In this document: positions 15,889-41,361 of the stretch, in pieces
How positions within the stretch are numbered: the first letter of the stretch is position 1
Layout of the letters: every line of letters begins with the position of its first letter
Source of the DNA: Salinirussus salinus
GTDB lineage: Archaea; Halobacteriota; Halobacteria; Halobacteriales; Haloarculaceae
Direction of reading: 5' to 3'
NCBI RefSeq assembly: GCF_009831455.1
Contig: NZ_WOWO01000003.1
Span: forward strand, 124,001 to 188,000
Length of the DNA: 64,000 nt
Program-made: the position numbers and the translations under genes
The notes under the pieces: model-generated
What the model was told of the DNA's origin: nothing
Seen by the model: the letters and a program-made list of their open reading frames with translations, nothing else
The model's database searches: none

Positions 15889-16629
15889 TCACTCCTCGCC
15901 GCCCTTCCAGCGCTCCGGCACCTGGATGGTGTACTTGCCGTCTTCCTGGAGCGCGATGATATACTCCTCGCGGTCGTACAGCTCCATCAGGTTCAGCTCG
16001 TACTGGCCGGGCTCGAGGACGCGGATGGACTCGAACTGGTCGTTGAGCTCCTCGCGGAGGTCGGCGAGGTCGGGCCGGTCCTGGCGGGTCCGCTCGGCGG
16101 TCGTCGGGCTCTCGCCGTGTTTCGCGGTCTCGCTGTGGTCGTCGAGCACCGGTGTGGGGTGGTCCTCGCCCTCGGCGGGACTGGACGTGCCGCTCGGCAG
16201 GTCCTCCATCGGGACGACGTCCGTGCGGGCGCTTGCCTGCGCGGCGTCTTCCGTGGTCGCCTCGGTGGCGTCTCCGGGGCTCGCGTCCTTCGGGGTTCGG
16301 CCCTGCGGGTCGGACGCCGGCGCGGGGTCTGGACGGGTCACACCGGGAGCGGATCCGGTCGGATCGGACCCGGCCTCTGTCTCGGGCTCGGGCGGGTCAG
16401 AGCTAACCAGGTCGCGGACCGCGGTCGCGGCCGAGCCGACGGCACGCGTCACGCCGTCGGCGGCCGGTTCCGGCGGCTCCGGGGGTTCTGCGTCCGGGTC
16501 CGGGTCCGGACTGTCGACGCCGTCGGGCCGGAACTGGAACTTGTTGCCGCCACAGTCGGGACAGCCCGAGAGCATCTCCTTGGAGCCGTCGGCGAACGTG
16601 CGGCCACAGTCCGTGCACTGGTGGGGCAT
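15889..16629 (-). CDS. oapC: OapC/ArvC-type zinc-ribbon protein
   Basis: The 246-residue protein has an N-terminal zinc ribbon with CTDC and CPDC (residues 5-26). A long acidic, Pro/Glu/Asp-rich disordered middle follows (about 40-190). The C-terminal beta domain (about 195-240) contains FESIRVLEPGQYELNLMELY and ends near KYTIQVPERWKG. It is the third gene of a tight operon: oapA, 2 bases, oapB, 2 bases, oapC. In Haloferax volcanii the equivalent genes sit beside oriC1 and were named origin-associated proteins. The GTPase system has since been connected to extracellular vesicle formation (ArvABC). Confidence 0.85.
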   Translation of the reverse strand: MPHQCTDCGRTFADGSKEMLSGCPDCGGNKFQFRPDGVDSPDPDPDAEPPEPPEPAADGVTRAVGSAATAVRDLVSSDPPEPETEAGSDPTGSAPGVTRPDPAPASDPQGRTPKDASPGDATEATTEDAAQASARTDVVPMEDLPSGTSSPAEGEDHPTPVLDDHSETAKHGESPTTAERTRQDRPDLADLREELNDQFESIRVLEPGQYELNLMELYDREEYIIALQEDGKYTIQVPERWKGGEE

Positions 16630-16631
16630 CC

Positions 16632-17015
16632 TTACTTGCGGGAGACGAGGGTCTGGATCAGCGTCTCGTCCTTGTGGAGGGTCTCGATCTGGTTTGCCGG
16701 GCCGATGACGGTGAGCTTCTTGGTCGACTCCCGGCCCATCAGCCGGTCGAGGAAGCTCGCGTCGGCGGTCTCCGAGCGCGGGTAGGTCTCGATCTCGATG
16801 CCGTTGAACTCGTCGGGGCTGATCTCGGTCATCGTCACCTCGATCAGGCGGGACTCCTCGTCGGGCGAGAGTCCCTCCTCGAGGATGACGATGTTGCCCT
16901 CCCGGACGCCGTCGAGGATCATCCGGATCTTCTCCATCGAGGTCTGGCTGGCGAGCCGTTCGCCGCTGATGAGGTCGATCTGCACGCCGTCCTGGGGGTC
17001 CTTGACTTCTGCCAT
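16632..17015 (-). CDS. oapB: OapB (DUF2073 family)
   Basis: The 127-residue protein belongs by pattern to DUF2073: DGVQIDLISGERLASQTSME, then ILDGVREGNIVILEEGLSPD, and a C-terminal strand region ending LIQTLVSRK. Homologues accompany the Era-like GTPase OapA across Euryarchaeota. No enzyme motif is seen. Spacing to oapA and oapC is 2 bases each. It may be a partner or regulator of the GTPase; that is inference from gene order. Confidence 0.9.
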   Translation of the reverse strand: MAEVKDPQDGVQIDLISGERLASQTSMEKIRMILDGVREGNIVILEEGLSPDEESRLIEVTMTEISPDEFNGIEIETYPRSETADASFLDRLMGRESTKKLTVIGPANQIETLHKDETLIQTLVSRK

Positions 17016-17017
17016 GG

Positions 17018-17665
17018 TTATCCGAAGTACTCCGCGATCTTGTCGTACACTTCGTCCATGTTGTCCCCCTCGAGCGCCGAGACCGCGACGGTCTCGTGCT
17101 GCGGGAAGGCGTTGCGGATCCGCTGGACGCTCGACTCCTCGAGGTCGATCTTGTTCGCGAGGATCAGGACCGGGAGGTCCTGGCTCTCGATGATGCCGAT
17201 GAGCATCGTGTTGACCTGGGTAAAGGGGTCCGAGGCGGAGTCGAGGACGTAGACGACCCCGTCGACGTCCTCCCGGAGCCAGTGCATCGCCTCGGCGACG
17301 CCCTCCGTGGCCTCCCGGGAGCGCCGGACGGCGTCCTCCTTCTCCATGTCGTGTTCGAGGAACTCCGTGTAGTCGACCTTCGTGGTCACGCCGGGCGTGT
17401 CCACGATGTCGATGGTGACCGTCTTGCCGTCGCGCTCGATCTCGACGTTCTCCTTGCGGCGGGCGCGGCGGGTCTCGTGGGGAACGTGGCTCTCCGGTCC
17501 CACCGCGTCGCCGTGTTCGGTCCAGTCCCGCGCAATGCGGTTCGCGAGGGTCGTCTTCCCGGCGTTGGGCGGCCCGTAGATCCCGATCCGTTTGGGATCC
17601 TCCGCCGAGAACAGCGTCGATGCTGCGCGTGAAATGCTGGATTTGAGGTCTGTGAGTAGTCCCAT
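17018..17665 (-). CDS. oapA: OapA/ArvA Era-like small GTPase
   Basis: The 215-residue GTPase has G1 GPPNAGKTT (31-39). The G2 region is a conserved Lys/Arg/Thr-rich stretch (HETRRARRKENVE), G3 is DTPGVT, and G4 is NKID. The N-terminus (MGLLTDLKSSISRAASTLFS) is an amphipathic helix that could associate with membrane. The Haloferax homologue has been reported to drive extracellular vesicle formation, and the gene sits next to oriC1. It is the first gene of the oapABC operon. Its promoter is a TATATATAA box at 17734-17742, and its short leader is nearly all hairpin. Confidence 0.9.
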   Translation of the reverse strand: MGLLTDLKSSISRAASTLFSAEDPKRIGIYGPPNAGKTTLANRIARDWTEHGDAVGPESHVPHETRRARRKENVEIERDGKTVTIDIVDTPGVTTKVDYTEFLEHDMEKEDAVRRSREATEGVAEAMHWLREDVDGVVYVLDSASDPFTQVNTMLIGIIESQDLPVLILANKIDLEESSVQRIRNAFPQHETVAVSALEGDNMDEVYDKIAEYFG

Positions 17666-17742: not shown

Positions 17743-18042
17743 TTCAACCACATTTCCGGAACGGCCGACAGAACGACCGGAGAGCGTGGTATCCCTGCCG
17801 CTCTCCGCGAGATAAGTGCAAAGATACAGATATTTCGAGGGGAGTGAACCTGTCTTCAGGGGGAGAGAAACAGGAGTCGGGAGGAAAGAGAACGGAGACG
17901 GACGAGAGCGGCCGGGACTCGGGCATCGAAGACCGGGCCGGATTTCCCCACCGTTCTCCCGCCTCTGTTGTCCCCTCCTGTCACCACCGCTCTCCTACGC
18001 CTGCTATCCTCTCCCACCCCTCCACCTCTCCCATCCTTCTCG

Positions 18043-18076
18043 TCCCCCCCCACCCCTTCGTTTCAACTGCAACACC
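18043..18076 (-). repeat. ORB1 (origin recognition box with G-string)
   Basis: Read on the minus strand the element contains GTTGAAACGAAGGGGTGGGG with a further run of G. The core GAAACGAAGGGGT is the canonical archaeal ORB core, and the G-tail is typical of haloarchaeal oriC1. The tail points left, away from the A+T-rich segment. Confidence 0.9.
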
Positions 18077-18119
18077 AGCGAGGAACGGGCAGGGGAAAGT
18101 GAGGTGACCGGGGTCACGG

Positions 18120-18330
18120 AAGTCCAAACCCCGGAGAAAGTGGAGAAAGAGTGTGGCGAACGGCCGTCTCGAGGAGTCGTAAACGGAGGAGTCGATCAAA
18201 CTAGACGAGTAGCCTCACACTAGCTGTCTCCACTAGTCTACCCGAAACCCTACCCGAAAGAAGAATGAGCTCTTTCTAGTGCGGATACGGTTATCATCTA
18301 TCATACTTAAATCCTTCCAACTAGAAGGCC
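18120..18330. other. Candidate DNA unwinding element
   Basis: This is the most A+T-rich part of the origin, roughly half A+T against about 30% around it; the richest stretch is 18291-18312. It sits between the inverted ORB1 and ORB2. It also contains a direct repeat TACCCGAAA (18239-18247 and 18251-18259) and five CTAG tetramers (18201, 18220, 18233, 18276, 18321). Its role as the melting site is inferred from position. Confidence 0.7.
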
Positions 18331-18365
18331 GGATCCAGGGCTGACCCCCCGCCCCTCTCTTGGTC

Positions 18366-18394
18366 GTTCCACCCGAAACAAAGGGGTGGGGGGG
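18366..18394 (+). repeat. ORB2 (origin recognition box with G-string)
   Basis: The plus strand reads GTTCCACCCGAAACAAAGGG and continues into GTGGGGGGG. It is the inverted partner of ORB1 across the A+T-rich segment. Its G-string points right, so both tails face outward, as in characterised haloarchaeal oriC1 origins. Confidence 0.9.
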
Positions 18395-18399
18395 TTCGG

Positions 18400-18660
18400 G
18401 GCGACCTCTCTCTGTCTCGCCTCCCCCTCTCCTTTTCCCCTTGTTTTTTTCCGGTGTGCCCTCTCCCGCTCGACAGTTCCTCTCCATCCCCCTTCGTCCC
18501 CTCTTCTCTCCTTCTCCCCCTTCATCTGTTCTGCTTCCCCGGTCTCTTCCTCTCAGGTCTCTTCCTCTCATCTCTCTTCTCTTTTTCTCCTCTCTCATCC
18601 CTCCCTCATCTACTCCTCTCTCCTCTCCTCTGCCCTTCCTCGCTCCTCGCGTTTTGCTCG
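18400..18660. other. Long polypyrimidine tract in origin
   Basis: For about 260 bases the plus strand is almost entirely C and T. It includes a perfect 15-base tandem repeat GGTCTCTTCCTCTCA at 18541-18555 and 18556-18570. Such asymmetry is extreme for this window and ends before the orc1 promoter. No open frame here looks real. Confidence 0.8.
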
Positions 18661-18824
18661 GTCCGCCCTCCGCCTCCGGCCGTGCCCAGCCGTCCACCCT
18701 GCGCACCCCGATCCCGCGCACCCCGCCTCTACCGACACACCACGACCGCCCCCCTCTTTCGAGTGCGCGCCACACCGACCCCCGACTGCGACGGGTACTG
18801 TGGTATCCTTTCACAACCGAAATC

Positions 18825-18971
18825 TTTAATAGATTCTCAACCGGGGGTTCTTGTGGTTCAGGTGGACACACGCCGGAACGGGAAACGGGGCCGTCAGGGG
18901 CGTTCTCGGCGATGTGGACCCGTACGCGGGGCGCGAAGCGCCCATCTCCAATCGAAACGAAGGGGTTTCCC
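18825..18971 (+). promoter_or_regulatory. orc1 promoter and ORB3
   Basis: A TTTAAT box (18825-18830) preceded by an A/C-rich stretch would start transcription near 18855, leaving a leader of about 120 bases. Within it, at 18945-18971, lies an ORB: CTCCAATCGAAACGAAGGGG. It ends 5 bases before the orc1 ATG. Orc1 bound here could repress its own expression as well as contribute to the origin; this is inference from position. Confidence 0.7.
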
Positions 18972-18976
18972 ACGAC

Positions 18977-20524
18977 ATGACAGACGCGGACGAACCGCGG
19001 GATGGCACGGGCGACGTCGACAGTGACGACCCCGAATTCACCGGTGTATCGGAAGGAGTTGCCGACTCTGTCGCCTCACCCTCCTCGGAGTCGACTCCAC
19101 CCGAAGCGACGCTCGACGACGTCCTCGCCGAAGAGGAGTCCGCCGACGAGGCCTCCCAGGGGCTGTTCGACGACCTGCTGAGCGGCCAGCCCATCTTCGA
19201 GAACAAGGAGGTACTCCGCCCGTCCTACACCCCCCGGAAGCTCCCCCACCGAGAGGAGCAGATCAACAACATGGCGACGATCCTCGTGACGGCCCTGCGC
19301 GGGGACACGCCCTCGAACATCCTCATCTACGGGAAGACGGGGACCGGAAAGACCGCGAGCGCGAAGTTCGTCTCCGACGAACTCGAGTCCACTTCCGAGA
19401 AGTACGAGGTCCCCTGCGAGGTCGAGTACATCAACTGCGAGGTGACCGACACTCAGTACCGCGTGCTCGCCCAGCTCGCGAACAAGTTCATCGAGAAAAA
19501 CCGCGAGTCCATCGACGACGAACTCGCCGACCTCGAGACGCTTCGCGAGGAGGGCGGCGACCTCGCGGGGTCGAGCTACGACTCCCCCCAAGCTGTCGAG
19601 CAGCGCATCGGGGAACTCGAGGACGCCCGCGACCGCTTCGAGGAGGTGCCGATGACCGGGTGGCCGACCGACCGGGTCTACAGTTCCTTCTTCGACGCGG
19701 TCGACTACCGCGAGCGCGTGGTGGTGATCATGCTCGACGAGATCGACAAACTCGTCGAGAAGTCCGGCGACGACACCCTCTACAACCTCTCCCGGATGAA
19801 CTCCGAACTCGAGAACTCCCGGGTGTCGATCATGGGGATCTCCAACGACCTCAAGTTCACCGACTTCCTCGACCCGCGTGTCAAATCCAGCCTCGGCGAG
19901 GAGGAGATCGTCTTCCCGCCCTACGACGCGAACCAGCTTCGGGACATCCTCGAGCACCGCGCGGAGGAGGCCTTCGAGCCGGACGCGCTCACCGACGACG
20001 TCATTCCGCTGTGTGCGGCCTTCGCCGCCCAGGAACACGGCGACGCCCGCCGGGCGCTCGACCTGCTGCGGACCGCCGGCGAACTCGCCGAGCGCGACCA
20101 GACCGACGGCGTCGAGGAGGCCCACGTCCGCAAGGCCCAGGAGAAGATCGAACTCGACCGGGTGGTCGAGGTCGTCCGGACGCTCCCCCAGCAGTCCAAA
20201 CTGGTGCTTTTCTCGATCATCCTGCTCGAGAAACAGGGGGTCCACAACATCAACACCGGCGAGGTGTACAACATCTACAAGCGGCTCTGCGAGGAGATCG
20301 ACACCGACGTGCTCACCCAGCGCCGGGTGACCGACCTCATCTCCGAGCTCGACATGCTCGGGATCGTCAACGCTGTCGTCGTCTCGAAGGGCCGGTACGG
20401 CCGCACGAAGGAGATCAGCCTCTCGGTACCCCTGGAGGAGACCGAGGCCGTGCTCCTCTCCGACTCCCGGCTCGGCGACATCGAGGACGTCCAGCCGTTC
20501 GTCCAGGCCCGCTTCGACAGCTGA
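18977..20524 (+). CDS. orc1: Orc1/Cdc6 replication initiator
   Basis: The AAA+ initiator binds ORBs and recruits the MCM helicase. The product is 515 residues. After an acidic N-terminal extension (1-70) comes the AAA+ domain. Its Walker A is GKTGTGKT (119-126), Walker B is MLDEID with D254 and E255, and sensor 1 is GISNDL. The C-terminal winged helix (about 415-510) contains LCEEIDTDVLTQRRVTDLIS. I chose the ATG at 18977 (MTDADEP) because the upstream frame would read through ORB3 and has atypical residues. It neighbours oapA and the ORBs, so this is the oriC1-linked initiator (Orc7 type in Halobacterium). Confidence 0.95.
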   Translation: MTDADEPRDGTGDVDSDDPEFTGVSEGVADSVASPSSESTPPEATLDDVLAEEESADEASQGLFDDLLSGQPIFENKEVLRPSYTPRKLPHREEQINNMATILVTALRGDTPSNILIYGKTGTGKTASAKFVSDELESTSEKYEVPCEVEYINCEVTDTQYRVLAQLANKFIEKNRESIDDELADLETLREEGGDLAGSSYDSPQAVEQRIGELEDARDRFEEVPMTGWPTDRVYSSFFDAVDYRERVVVIMLDEIDKLVEKSGDDTLYNLSRMNSELENSRVSIMGISNDLKFTDFLDPRVKSSLGEEEIVFPPYDANQLRDILEHRAEEAFEPDALTDDVIPLCAAFAAQEHGDARRALDLLRTAGELAERDQTDGVEEAHVRKAQEKIELDRVVEVVRTLPQQSKLVLFSIILLEKQGVHNINTGEVYNIYKRLCEEIDTDVLTQRRVTDLISELDMLGIVNAVVVSKGRYGRTKEISLSVPLEETEAVLLSDSRLGDIEDVQPFVQARFDS

Positions 20525-20561: not shown

Positions 20562-21335
20562 CTATCCTGCGGACTGCAGCCGGATCCAGCCCAGCCCCGG
20601 GATCTTGAACTCCGCGGTCCCGACGACCCACGCGGGTCTGACCGGCCCGGTCAGCCCCGTGGCCTGGTCGTAGCTGGGGTTGTTGTCACCCTTCGTGATG
20701 AAGCCGGCGTGGTCGGCGACACACCGGGGGTCGTTCGGACTCAGCGCGCCGAGATACGCCGAATCGGCGGCCGTACACCAGTTTTCACCCTCTTCGACCC
20801 AGAACATCGCCCGGTGGATGATCGGTGTCCCGCCCCGGTCGCCGTCGGCCGCAAAGACGATCACGTCACCCGGGTTGCCGAACTTCGTGTAACCGGTCTC
20901 CGCGCCCACGCGCGCGGTGACGACTCCGTACTCCGCGCGTTCCCCGGGGAACCGCTCTTCCTCCATCACGAACACGAGGTCGTTGCGCTCCATGTTCGGG
21001 AGCATGCTCCCGCTCTCGACGGCGACCAGCGGCGGCCAGACGCCGCTCACCGCGAACAGGAAAAAGCCGACGAGCACCACCGCGAACACGCTGCTCGCGA
21101 CGTCGCGGACGAACAGCCGCCAGCCGCCGTTCCCGCCGCCGTTCGTACCCGGCTCGGGGTCCGGCGGGTCGGGGCCACCCCGCCGGTCCCCGACCGGCCG
21201 ACGGGCCCGGTCCCCGGACTCGACGTTCTCCGGCGCTCGCTCCCCGGAGTCGGCGGGGCCGGACCGGGGTCCTCCGGCCGGGGAACCGTCTCTCCCCCCG
21301 CCTCGCCCGTCTCCCTCGCCGGGGCCTCTCATCAC
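20562..21335 (-). CDS. sec11: Signal peptidase I (archaeal Sec11 type)
   Basis: The enzyme cleaves Sec signal peptides at the membrane. Of 257 residues, the first 75 or so are Gly/Pro/Asp/Arg-rich and disordered. A membrane helix (about 80-103) then leads to the catalytic serine box VESGSMLPNM. IIHRAMF gives the histidine that replaces the bacterial lysine, and ITKGDNN carries the conserved Asp. It faces orc1 convergently with a 37-base gap and is divergent from polD1. The same gene lies between orc1 and polD1 in Haloferax. Confidence 0.9.
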   Translation of the reverse strand: MMRGPGEGDGRGGGRDGSPAGGPRSGPADSGERAPENVESGDRARRPVGDRRGGPDPPDPEPGTNGGGNGGWRLFVRDVASSVFAVVLVGFFLFAVSGVWPPLVAVESGSMLPNMERNDLVFVMEEERFPGERAEYGVVTARVGAETGYTKFGNPGDVIVFAADGDRGGTPIIHRAMFWVEEGENWCTAADSAYLGALSPNDPRCVADHAGFITKGDNNPSYDQATGLTGPVRPAWVVGTAEFKIPGLGWIRLQSAG

Positions 21336-21411: not shown

Positions 21412-22953
21412 GTGTCACTCGAGGGGGCCGCCAGGGTCGTCAGCGAACTCGCCAGCCGGGGGTACAACGCCGACCGCGAGGCCGTCACCTTGCTGGCGAA
21501 CGCTCCGGACCCCGAAACCGCCCTCGAGCGCGCAGTCGAACAGGCCCCCGACGACGCGCTCAAACTCTCGACCGACCACGTCCGCGAGGCGCTCGACGGC
21601 GCGCAGTCCTCCGGTTCTCCGCCCACGCCGGCCGACGCCAGTGAGGGGCCGACGGGCGCTGCCGACCCGGACTCGACCCCCTCCATTTCGACTGGAACCG
21701 ACCGAGAAAACACGCGCGACGGTGGGCGGGGTGTTCCAGTCGAAACGAAGGGGTCGGCGGTCGTCGAGACCAGCGGGGACATCGCGAGTACGGGCACCGG
21801 GGAGTACCGCGACTTCCTCGCGGTCTTCCGGGACCGCTACGAGAAACTCTCCGCGCACCTCCGGAGTCGGGTCAACCACCGGCCCGCGGCCACCATCGCC
21901 GACATGAGTCCCAGTAGCGACGCCGCCCTGGTCGGACTGGTCTCGGACATCCGCTCGACGGCCGGGGGCCACTGGCTGGTCGAACTGGAGGATACCACCG
22001 GTACCTTCCCCTGCCTGGTGATGAGCGACCGCGACTTCGCCGACGACGTCCGGGAACTGCTGTACGACGAGGTCGTCGCCGTCGAGGGGACGCTGGCCGA
22101 CGACGGCGGGATCCTCTTCGTCGACGACCTCTACTTCCCCGATATCCCCCGGACCCACACCCCCTCGACGGCCGACCGCCCGGTCCGGGCCGCGCTGGTC
22201 TCGGACGTCCACGTCGGCAGCCAGGAGTTCCGGGCCGACGCCTGGGAGCGCTTTGCCGACTGGCTCCACACCGAAGAGGCCGAAGACGTCGAGTACCTCC
22301 TCGTCGGGGGGGACATGGTCGAGGGCGTCGGCGTCTACCCCGACCAGGACGAGGAGCTGGACATCGTGGACATCTACGACCAGTACGAGCGGTTCAGCGA
22401 GCACCTCAAGTCGGTGCCCGGCGACCTCGAGGTGGTCATGATCCCCGGCAACCACGACGCCGTCCGGCTGGCCGAGCCCCAGCCGGCCTTCGACGAGGAA
22501 CTCCGCTCTATCATGTCGGCTCACGACGCCGAGATAGCGGCAAACCCTGCCACCGTCACCGTCGAAGGGGTGACCGTGCTGATGTACCACGGCGTCTCGC
22601 TGGACGAGGTGATCGCCGAACTCCCCGACGAGGCCGCGAGCTACGACCGGCCCCACGAGGCGATGTACCAGCTCCTGCGGAAACGCCACGTCGCACCGCA
22701 GTACGGCGGCCGGACCCGCCTGGCCCCGGAGGAGGAGGACCACCTCGTCATCGAGGAGGTGCCCGACGTCTTCCACGCCGGCCACGTCCACAAGCTGGGC
22801 TACGGCAAGTATCACGGCGTGCTCACCGTCAACTCCGCGTGCTGGCAGTCCCAGACCGCTTTCCAGGAGAGCGTCAACCTCGACCCCGACGTCGGCTACG
22901 CCCCCATCGTCGACCTCCAGACGCTCGACCTCACAGTACGGAAGTTCGTCTGA
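21412..22953 (+). CDS. polD1: DNA polymerase D small subunit (DP1)
   Basis: DP1 is the proofreading 3'-5' exonuclease subunit of the archaeal replicative polymerase PolD. The product is 513 residues from a GTG start at 21412, supported by a CTTTT box about 30 bases upstream. The N-terminal helical domain covers about 1-75, and a disordered linker about 75-125. An OB fold follows (about 160-235). The phosphoesterase domain has D265 and H267 (DVHVGS), D301 (GGDMVEG), N347/H348/D349 (GNHD), and H455/H458/H460 (HAGHVH). Metal ligands all appear intact. The linker codons coincide with two ORB-like sequences. Confidence 0.93.
   Translation: MSLEGAARVVSELASRGYNADREAVTLLANAPDPETALERAVEQAPDDALKLSTDHVREALDGAQSSGSPPTPADASEGPTGAADPDSTPSISTGTDRENTRDGGRGVPVETKGSAVVETSGDIASTGTGEYRDFLAVFRDRYEKLSAHLRSRVNHRPAATIADMSPSSDAALVGLVSDIRSTAGGHWLVELEDTTGTFPCLVMSDRDFADDVRELLYDEVVAVEGTLADDGGILFVDDLYFPDIPRTHTPSTADRPVRAALVSDVHVGSQEFRADAWERFADWLHTEEAEDVEYLLVGGDMVEGVGVYPDQDEELDIVDIYDQYERFSEHLKSVPGDLEVVMIPGNHDAVRLAEPQPAFDEELRSIMSAHDAEIAANPATVTVEGVTVLMYHGVSLDEVIAELPDEAASYDRPHEAMYQLLRKRHVAPQYGGRTRLAPEEEDHLVIEEVPDVFHAGHVHKLGYGKYHGVLTVNSACWQSQTAFQESVNLDPDVGYAPIVDLQTLDLTVRKFV
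21676..21699 (-). repeat. ORB-like element inside polD1 (left arm)
   Basis: The minus strand reads GGTTCCAGTCGAAATGGAGG and continues GGGTC. It shares the 13-base core GTTCCAGTCGAAA (21686-21698 on this strand) with the element at 21731. Its G-rich end points left. It covers codons about 89-96 of polD1. Confidence 0.65.
21731..21755 (+). repeat. ORB-like element inside polD1 (right arm)
   Basis: The plus strand reads TTCCAGTCGAAACGAAGGGG, an excellent match to the archaeal ORB core. It is inverted relative to the copy at 21676-21699; the perfect 13-base arms are separated by 34 bases. It encodes VPVETKGS in the disordered linker of DP1. Confidence 0.75.
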
Positions 22954-40095: not shown

Positions 40096-41166
40096 TCAGT
40101 CGTCGTCGGTCTCGCTGGTCAGCACGGAGTCGCCTTCCTCGGTGAAGCCGGCGGACTCCTCCTGACGGGCCTGGGCCTCGGGGTCGAACTTCGCCTCGAT
40201 CTCCTGGAACCGCGGGACGAAGGAGAGCTCGTGGTGGCTCTCGGTCGGGTGGCCGAGGTAGCGGTCCTCGAGGTCGAACTGGGCCTGCTCGTCGTTCTCG
40301 GCGATGTTGGTGAAGTCCTCGTAGATGGCGTGGGCGCCGGAGTGCAGGGCGTACAGCGTGATGAAGATGTACTTGTAGCCCATGTCGCCGAGCTCCTGGA
40401 ACGTGAGCGGGTCCTCCTCCTCGCTCCAGGCGAAACTGGAGGAGTAGTTGAAGGCCAGCTTCACGTCGGGGTGGGTCTCGTGCAGCGTCTCGGCGTACTC
40501 GATGGCGTCCTCGCGGGAGGGGTCGGGCATCTCGGGCCAGACCAGGTCGACGCCGGCGTCGGCGTAGAGCCGGCCGCGCTCGAGGTGTTCCTCCCAGTCG
40601 CCGTTCGCGGAGCCGTAGGCGTCGGTCCGGGCGATGATGACCGTGTCCTCGTCCTGCTTGGCGTCGACGGCCGCACGGAAGCGGGCCTCGGCCTCGTCGC
40701 GGGAGACGATCTTCTTGCCGGCGATGTGACCGCATCGCTTGGGCGTGGTCTGGTCCTCGATGTGGACCGCGGCGACGCCGGCCTTCTCGTACTCCCGCAC
40801 CGCGCGGCGGACGTTGTGGACGCCGCCGTAGCCGGTGTCACAGTCGGCGATGACCGGCAGGTTCGTCGCCTCGACCTGGCGCTTTGCGTTCTCGACCATC
40901 TCGCGCATGTCGACCATCTCCAGGTCCGGGAAGGCGAACTGGCCCAGCACCGTCGAGTAGCCGGACATGTAGACGGCGTCGAGGTCGGCCATCTCGGCCA
41001 GCCGGGCGTCCAGCGCGTCGTAGGTGCCCGGCGCGAAGACGTAGTCCTGGTTGTTCAGCATGTCCCGGAACTCCCGTGCCGCTTCGTTGTCCACGTCGCG
41101 GATGTAGGGGTCCGTGCTCTTGACTCGGCTCGCAACTTCGTCGGTTCCGGAATCGTCCTGTGTCAT
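40096..41166 (-). CDS. aceA: Isocitrate lyase
   Basis: The enzyme cleaves isocitrate to succinate and glyoxylate, allowing growth on acetate or fatty acids. The product is 356 residues, short like other haloarchaeal isocitrate lyases. The catalytic loop KRCGH (143-147) matches the isocitrate-lyase KKCGH signature, with the catalytic Cys C145. DCDTGYGG binds metal and substrate, and NYSSSFAW is a conserved substrate segment. The related methylisocitrate lyase is less likely given the malate synthase nearby. I chose ATG 41166. Confidence 0.92.
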
Positions 41167-41361
41167 GGTTGAGAGACCGCGATCGGGTCGCGTCTGATGC
41201 ACTCGGGGAGAATCCCCTGTCGTAGAAAAATGTTATGAACTATAATGATAATATTCTTTCTAATCGGTTTAGGGTCCTAAATTGAGTGTGGTTCACACCC
41301 GTGCGACGCGGTGGCGTGGGCCGCCGGGCGGGGTGGGTCGGCGTCCGGGGGTCCCGGCCCG
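41167..41361. promoter_or_regulatory. aceA promoter with inverted repeat
   Basis: This A+T-rich stretch lies upstream of aceA. On the minus strand a TATA-like element near 41238-41246 would give a leader of about 50 bases. Upstream of it is the 14-base near-palindrome TTTAGGGTCCTAAA (41268-41281), with arms TTTAGG and CCTAAA, where an activator could bind. Acetate-responsive control is inference. Confidence 0.5.

Follow-up and report, generated by a model that had tools for sequence, protein, structure and literature searches.

A divergent pair of ORBs resides within the gene for DP1, the small subunit of DNA polymerase D, and appears to be kept across the Halobacteria by selection on the DNA itself; probably, the pair represents a non-origin Orc1-binding site which would tune the supply of the initiator and/or the expression of PolD. 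The 64,000-nt stretch of DNA that was analysed here (the window) had previously been described as harboring a complete oriC1-type replication origin at positions 17743-18976, a claim that is supported by our analysis, as nearly every testable sequence feature was found and is conserved in relatives. In addition, the set of Orc1-type sites extends past this marked span. The DP1 pair had been overlooked in the preliminary description, as had a cluster of CTAG within the origin. ORB B of the pair, about 3 kb downstream of the origin, is the sole ORB in the genome that matches perfectly. The features concerned are:

21412 to 22953, plus strand: DP1, small subunit of DNA polymerase D, with a GTG start (NF003116, 900 bits)
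21678 to 21698, minus strand: DP1-internal ORB A, 2 mismatches, with codon-level constraint
21733 to 21753, plus strand: DP1-internal ORB B, 0 mismatches, with codon-level constraint

ORB matches refer to the haloarchaeal ORB pattern GTTCCANTNGAAACNAAGGGG, which was borne out by the alignments. At no more than 3 mismatches, the window contains 5 matches, whereas shuffled sequences contain 0.01 on average and never more than 1. The whole 3.37-Mb genome likewise contains 5 matches at this threshold, all of them at the oriC1-DP1 locus, and the reversed-pattern control yielded 0. A looser pattern returned further, weaker places, but the control went up as well (21 versus 11). Accumulation of strong matches (at most 2 mismatches) at the oriC1 locus was similarly observed in ten relatives' genomes, where 38 out of 56 reside within the locus and the control again gave 0. 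For the origin locus itself, the comparison set comprised 80 relatives and the window, that is, 81 loci; the relatives are not independent, and the codon counts given below are numbers of sequences, not of events.

The marked span and its surroundings contain the following elements:

15889 to 16629, minus strand: oapC (PF09845, 101 bits)
16632 to 17015, minus strand: oapB (PF09846, 142 bits)
17018 to 17665, minus strand: oapA-like GTPase (MMR_HSR1 hit), present in 74 of the 81 loci
18053 to 18073, minus strand: left origin ORB, 1 mismatch to GTTCCANTNGAAACNAAGGGG, with the extended G-string directed outward (complement of about 18045-18052)
18074 to 18365, no strand: A+T-rich segment between the ORBs, the presumed unwinding element, 45% A+T, with five CTAG at 18201-18321
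18366 to 18386, plus strand: right origin ORB, 1 mismatch, with the extended G-string reaching to 18394
18400 to 18660, plus strand: polypyrimidine tract with a C+T content of about 86%, following the right ORB and preceding the orc1 promoter
18945 to 18965, plus strand: leader ORB, 2 mismatches, with its end 11 nt upstream of the orc1 ATG and without extended G-string
18977 to 20524, plus strand: orc1/cdc6 of the oriC1 family (NF001625, 658 bits; best solved relative 2qby_A, E 9.6e-107)
20562 to 21335, minus strand: gene separating orc1 from DP1, probably for signal peptidase I (TIGR02228, 42.3 bits, under the cut-off of 51.85)

Based on these sequence features, the marked span is supported as the oriC1 of the chromosome, an origin of an already known kind whose activity is predicted. 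The two ORBs with outward G-strings, previously placed at 18043-18076 (minus) and 18366-18394 (plus), were recovered within a few bases and with 1 mismatch each, and in both of them GGGGTGGGGGGG runs outward. The segment between them had been described as richer in A+T, and its A+T content indeed amounts to 45%, rising to 54% in a 150-bp core, versus 30% in the window. In A+T content, this core is among the top two places of the window; the most A+T-rich 150 bp are located at 41121-41300, around an intergenic stretch near 41228-41281. The window's cumulative GC skew reaches its maximum at 17937. The proposed adjacency to orc1/cdc6 and an oapABC operon is borne out by the NF001625 match of 658 bits, by Pfam hits for OapB and OapC and by a GTPase in the position of OapA. 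The gene order was likewise confirmed as the conserved haloarchaeal one, with oapA in 74 of the 81 homologous loci and the origin ORB pair in 76. Many relatives likewise have a signal peptidase homologue in the interval from orc1 to DP1.

This arrangement corresponds to that of Haloarcula hispanica oriC1-cdc6A (PMC3936714, PMC3528665), with inverted ORBs, extended G-strings, an A+T-rich segment, a position upstream of orc1/cdc6 and a shared synteny. Nothing essential is different; ORBs are here also present in the orc1 leader and in DP1. Immediately inward of the ORBs, the known haloarchaeal oriC1 has a G-rich inverted repeat, a nonessential enhancer; the repeat is imperfect here, with its arms at about 18087 and 18347. 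According to the mechanism put forward in the literature, Orc1 would contact the two outward ORBs by its winged helix and the extended G-strings by its AAA+ part, and would then open or mark the A+T-rich, CTAG-rich segment and recruit MCM. The polypyrimidine tract was also considered as a part of this mechanism and rejected; although conspicuous in the window, it is weakly shared, with only 17 of 76 relatives above the 99th percentile at the corresponding position.

From base composition, 174 copies of the tetranucleotide CTAG would be expected in the window. It contains 7, five of which are located between the origin ORBs (18201-18321). Across the 76 loci with an origin pair, CTAG is 68-fold denser in the inter-ORB segment than elsewhere in these loci, 67 of them have at least one, and the enrichment between the ORBs is far above that of other A+T-containing palindromes. 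The genome of the window encodes one PF01555 methyltransferase. Of the 75 relatives whose loci have an origin pair, 50 were submitted to a search for the enzyme and 48 genomes were covered; among these, CTAG was missing between the ORBs in 4 out of 6 genomes without a PF01555 enzyme versus 4 out of 42 with one (p 0.005). One clear exception is L010, a metagenome assembly which has ten CTAG and no PF01555 hit. CTAG clusters at the starts of haloarchaeal orc1/cdc6 genes and an orphan CTAG methyltransferase are already described in PMC4752239, and the cluster was therefore rejected as a novel finding. As in that description, the present oriC1, a candidate methylation-marked origin, has a CTAG cluster together with one PF01555 enzyme in the genome; the difference is that CTAG is here localized to the inter-ORB segment of oriC1.

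A third ORB had been noted ahead of the orc1 start. This site is present at 18945-18965, with 2 mismatches, but it lies outside the minimal origin and is devoid of an extended G-string. A plus-strand ORB precedes orc1 in 70 of the 76 loci that possess the origin pair. Its distance to the first in-frame start codon could be measured in 68 loci and is no more than 20 nt in 61 of them, mostly 5-15 nt, values of 5-17 nt covering most loci. The GGGG of the leader ORB would thereby occupy the position of a Shine-Dalgarno sequence, a natural place for autoregulation. Accordingly positioned at the start codon, the leader ORB looks autoregulatory for orc1, and its occupation should allow Orc1 to repress its own gene. 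In one relative, a cluster of ORB-like sites was observed about 5.5 kb upstream of orc1 (L017:4420-4719).

Origin and non-origin ORBs differ in the extended G-string, here defined as at least 6 G within the next 10 nt. At the origin, 70 of 75 left ORBs and 73 of 76 right ones possess it, compared to 0 of 88 ORBs located between the origin pair and orc1; it occurs in 6 of 58 and 8 of 58 DP1 ORBs, respectively, and is absent from the DP1 pair of the window. Because mutation of either extended G-string abolishes the ARS activity of oriC1 in H. hispanica (PMC3936714), the leader and DP1 ORBs should bind Orc1 without making an origin. The distribution suggests a simple sequence rule in which presence or absence of the extended G-string would tell origin ORBs from regulatory ORBs.

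The DP1 pair displays the core, the polarity and the G-string core GGGG of archaeal ORBs, with 0 and 2 mismatches. The two sites lie 267 and 322 nt into the coding sequence of DP1, between the N-terminal segment and the OB-fold, and are divergent, that is, they have the same outward polarity as the origin pair; the 34 bp between them do not include an A+T-rich segment. When at most 4 mismatches were allowed per ORB, 44 of 67 loci containing DP1 possess the divergent pair, 21 a single ORB and 2 none; the pair is also found in the relative H. amylolytica (L029). The spacing within the 44 pairs is 55 bp in 35 loci, 73 bp in 4, 70 bp in 2, 67 bp in 2 and 52 bp in 1. The differences between these values are divisible by three and the codon phase is constant with few exceptions, as expected for a site within a reading frame. 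Out of 145 genomes belonging to the class, 53 carry the exact pair pattern and none the reversed control. Of the 54 places at which it occurs, 52 lie within DP1, and 47 have the 55-bp spacing; the exceptions are found in G068 and G120. In these two genomes, extra divergent ORB pairs are located beside or inside orc1 (G068:C1:1580260-1580326) and upstream of orc1 (G120:C15:30664-30741).

A further 60 DP1 regions, 57 from genomes without an exact match together with those of G152, G068 and G120, which have one, were screened for the best pair. It had at most 8 mismatches in total in 16 regions and at most 9 in 29, with 0 in the control in both cases, while 10 of the 60, as read from the individual rows, were at the level of the control; the pair is thus degraded in part of the class. 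This applies to the Haloferax loci L066, L073, L074, L078 and L084, in which the origin ORBs are kept and the DP1 pair is degraded, leaving no clear plus ORB. No convincing pair was found in 19 non-haloarchaeal DP1 loci, taken from 68 out-of-class genomes with a DP1 match by our own count, the candidate in L199 having 11 mismatches in total and a spacing of 119 bp. An ancient archaeal origin of the DP1 pair is, at 0 of these 19 loci, not supported.

DP1 is usually located 2-4 kb from orc1. The exact pair is kept in DP1 genes that are 11-193 kb away from orc1 in six genomes of the class, and on another contig in one more. In 16 genomes, DP1 is missing, partial (L071) or inverted (L081) at the locus, some of these loci merely having ended at a contig end, and in 12 of the 16 both ORBs were found in DP1 with at most 5 mismatches. 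In a number of relocated DP1 genes, the ORBs are weak or just one is present, so that the result on a dependence on distance is mixed. The position of the pair relative to the DP1 start varies between about 190 and 660 nt.

The peptides encoded at the two sites (PSVSTG ... PVETKG) recur in the linker of DP1 and their codon phase is constant, as might be expected if a peptide motif of DP1 merely resembled ORBs. However, the synonymous codons are fixed on rare choices. At DP1 ORB positions, GTT is used for 45 of 45 valines, compared to 4.7% elsewhere in the same genes, and similar shifts occur for ACT (44 of 44 versus 5.8%), GGA (45 of 45 versus 8.2%), CCA (49 of 50 versus 7.3%) and GAA (58 of 58 versus 27.5%). 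This count is partly circular, as 58 of the 67 genes were picked by their ORB match, leaving out L039, L044, L045, L048, L052, L071, L074, L080 and L085. A second test, free of this circularity, relied on positions taken from a protein alignment and hence blind to the DNA motif; it included all DP1 genes free of stops, 65 of the 67, L048 and L058 having been dropped because of apparent frameshifts. Here, the five most strongly biased of 513 codons all fall within the two ORBs, and the smoothed codon-bias signal peaks on the DP1 ORBs. Also, the first residue encoded by the plus ORB varies (V, S, A, T or I), while the third base is T in the commonest cases. A peptide motif alone was thus rejected on synonymous codon usage, and we consider its probability to be close to negligible. 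The arms of the pair are, furthermore, inverted repeats and the transcript could fold, so that they might form a stem-loop in the DP1 mRNA regulating translation or termination. Among 85 sequences, no pairing covariation between the arms was detected, their complementarity being 0.748 compared to 0.750 after shuffling; one position is mismatched in most sequences, and each arm follows the ORB consensus independently. This lack of excess complementarity indicates that the arms are constrained separately, as protein-binding sites would be, and a stem-loop, rejected for its lack of covariation, appears highly improbable.

Motif, polarity, locus and selection make binding of Orc1 to the DP1 pair very likely, and we infer that the pair does not initiate replication, as it is devoid of the extended G-string and leaves no room for an unwinding element. 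The same Orc1 would bind to the leader ORB and the divergent DP1 pair, both belonging to the classes poor in extended G-strings. At the DP1 pair, Orc1 would most likely act as a roadblock within the open reading frame that lowers transcription of DP1 and would, at the same time, be withheld from oriC1 soon after firing, since replication normally reaches the DP1 site shortly after it has left the origin. It could, alternatively, be speculated that the pair exclusively soaks up Orc1 against re-initiation, similar to datA, and that its place in DP1 is a historical accident. Such pure titration would be in line with oriC2D of H. hispanica, an ORB-rich non-origin which lowers the activity of oriC2 (PMC3936714), and with the usual position of the pair 2-4 kb from orc1, due to which it is doubled right after firing. 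Yet, the pair provides two sites only, compared to 11 in oriC2D, a titrator requires neither a fixed codon phase nor a single gene nor a 55-bp spacing throughout the class, and DP1 may lie 193 kb away from orc1 and still retain the pair. We therefore favor control of DP1, or both functions together, over titration alone, which we regard as rather unlikely: gene, phase and spacing are kept, and a pair of ORBs would make a small sink. That the pair is a second origin module, or a helicase-loading platform working with oriC1, might be suggested by its divergent polarity, as in the origin pair, and its normally close position. Against this stand the 34 bp between the ORBs, the missing A+T-rich segment and extended G-string, the latter being essential for ARS activity of oriC1 according to PMC3936714, and the retention of the pair in DP1 11-193 kb from orc1 in six genomes; this possibility thus appears improbable.

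A regulatory, non-origin Orc1-binding site, the reading that we prefer, also has evidence against it: the pair is degraded in part of the class, relocated DP1 genes give a mixed picture, two sites are few for titration, and the variable distance from the DP1 start (about 190-660 nt) does not favor a promoter-proximal block. In its most far-reaching form, Orc1 would directly control PolD via the DP1 pair, so that one protein would set the firing of the origin, its own synthesis and the supply of polymerase, with the extended G-string separating origin from regulatory ORBs. We put this forward tentatively, as a possibility somewhat short of an even chance.

Withholding of an initiator has a precedent by analogy in oriC2D of H. 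hispanica, which, according to PMC3936714, is ORB-rich but not an origin and represses oriC2. Similar to the DP1 pair, oriC2D has ORBs outside the minimal origin and downstream of an initiator gene, for which initiator binding without initiation has been proposed. It contains 11 intergenic ORBs, is thought to be bound by Cdc6E and is specific to oriC2, whereas the DP1 element, found class-wide, consists of just two ORBs that are a fixed distance apart and reside in the coding sequence of a polymerase subunit. A regulatory role of an Orc1-family protein also has a precedent in Orc1-2 (PMC9738581). The datA locus and dnaA autoregulation of E. coli, as named in PMC3936714, are alike in that initiator boxes are situated away from the origin and at the gene of the initiator. 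Initiator, boxes and location are different, and titration at the DP1 pair is a proposal.

ORBs inside DP1/polD1 are not mentioned in the available text of the literature searched, including PMC3528665, PMC3936714, PMC4595724, PMC2841640 and PMC7776575. In two of these, the origin predictions in PMC3528665 and PMC4595724, ORBs were, according to the text available, sought in intergenic regions only, and sites such as the DP1 pair would be invisible to such a search. How archaea limit initiation and match the supply of polymerase to it is poorly known, and a site selected at the DNA level outside the classic origin, within a gene essential for replication, is open to a direct genetic test. Two minor observations concern DP1 itself. 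In several relatives, GTTCGAGTGGAAAC-type sites are located downstream of the gene, and its start codon (21412-21414 in the window) is GTG in 64 out of 64 aligned genes, an unusually fixed non-ATG start.
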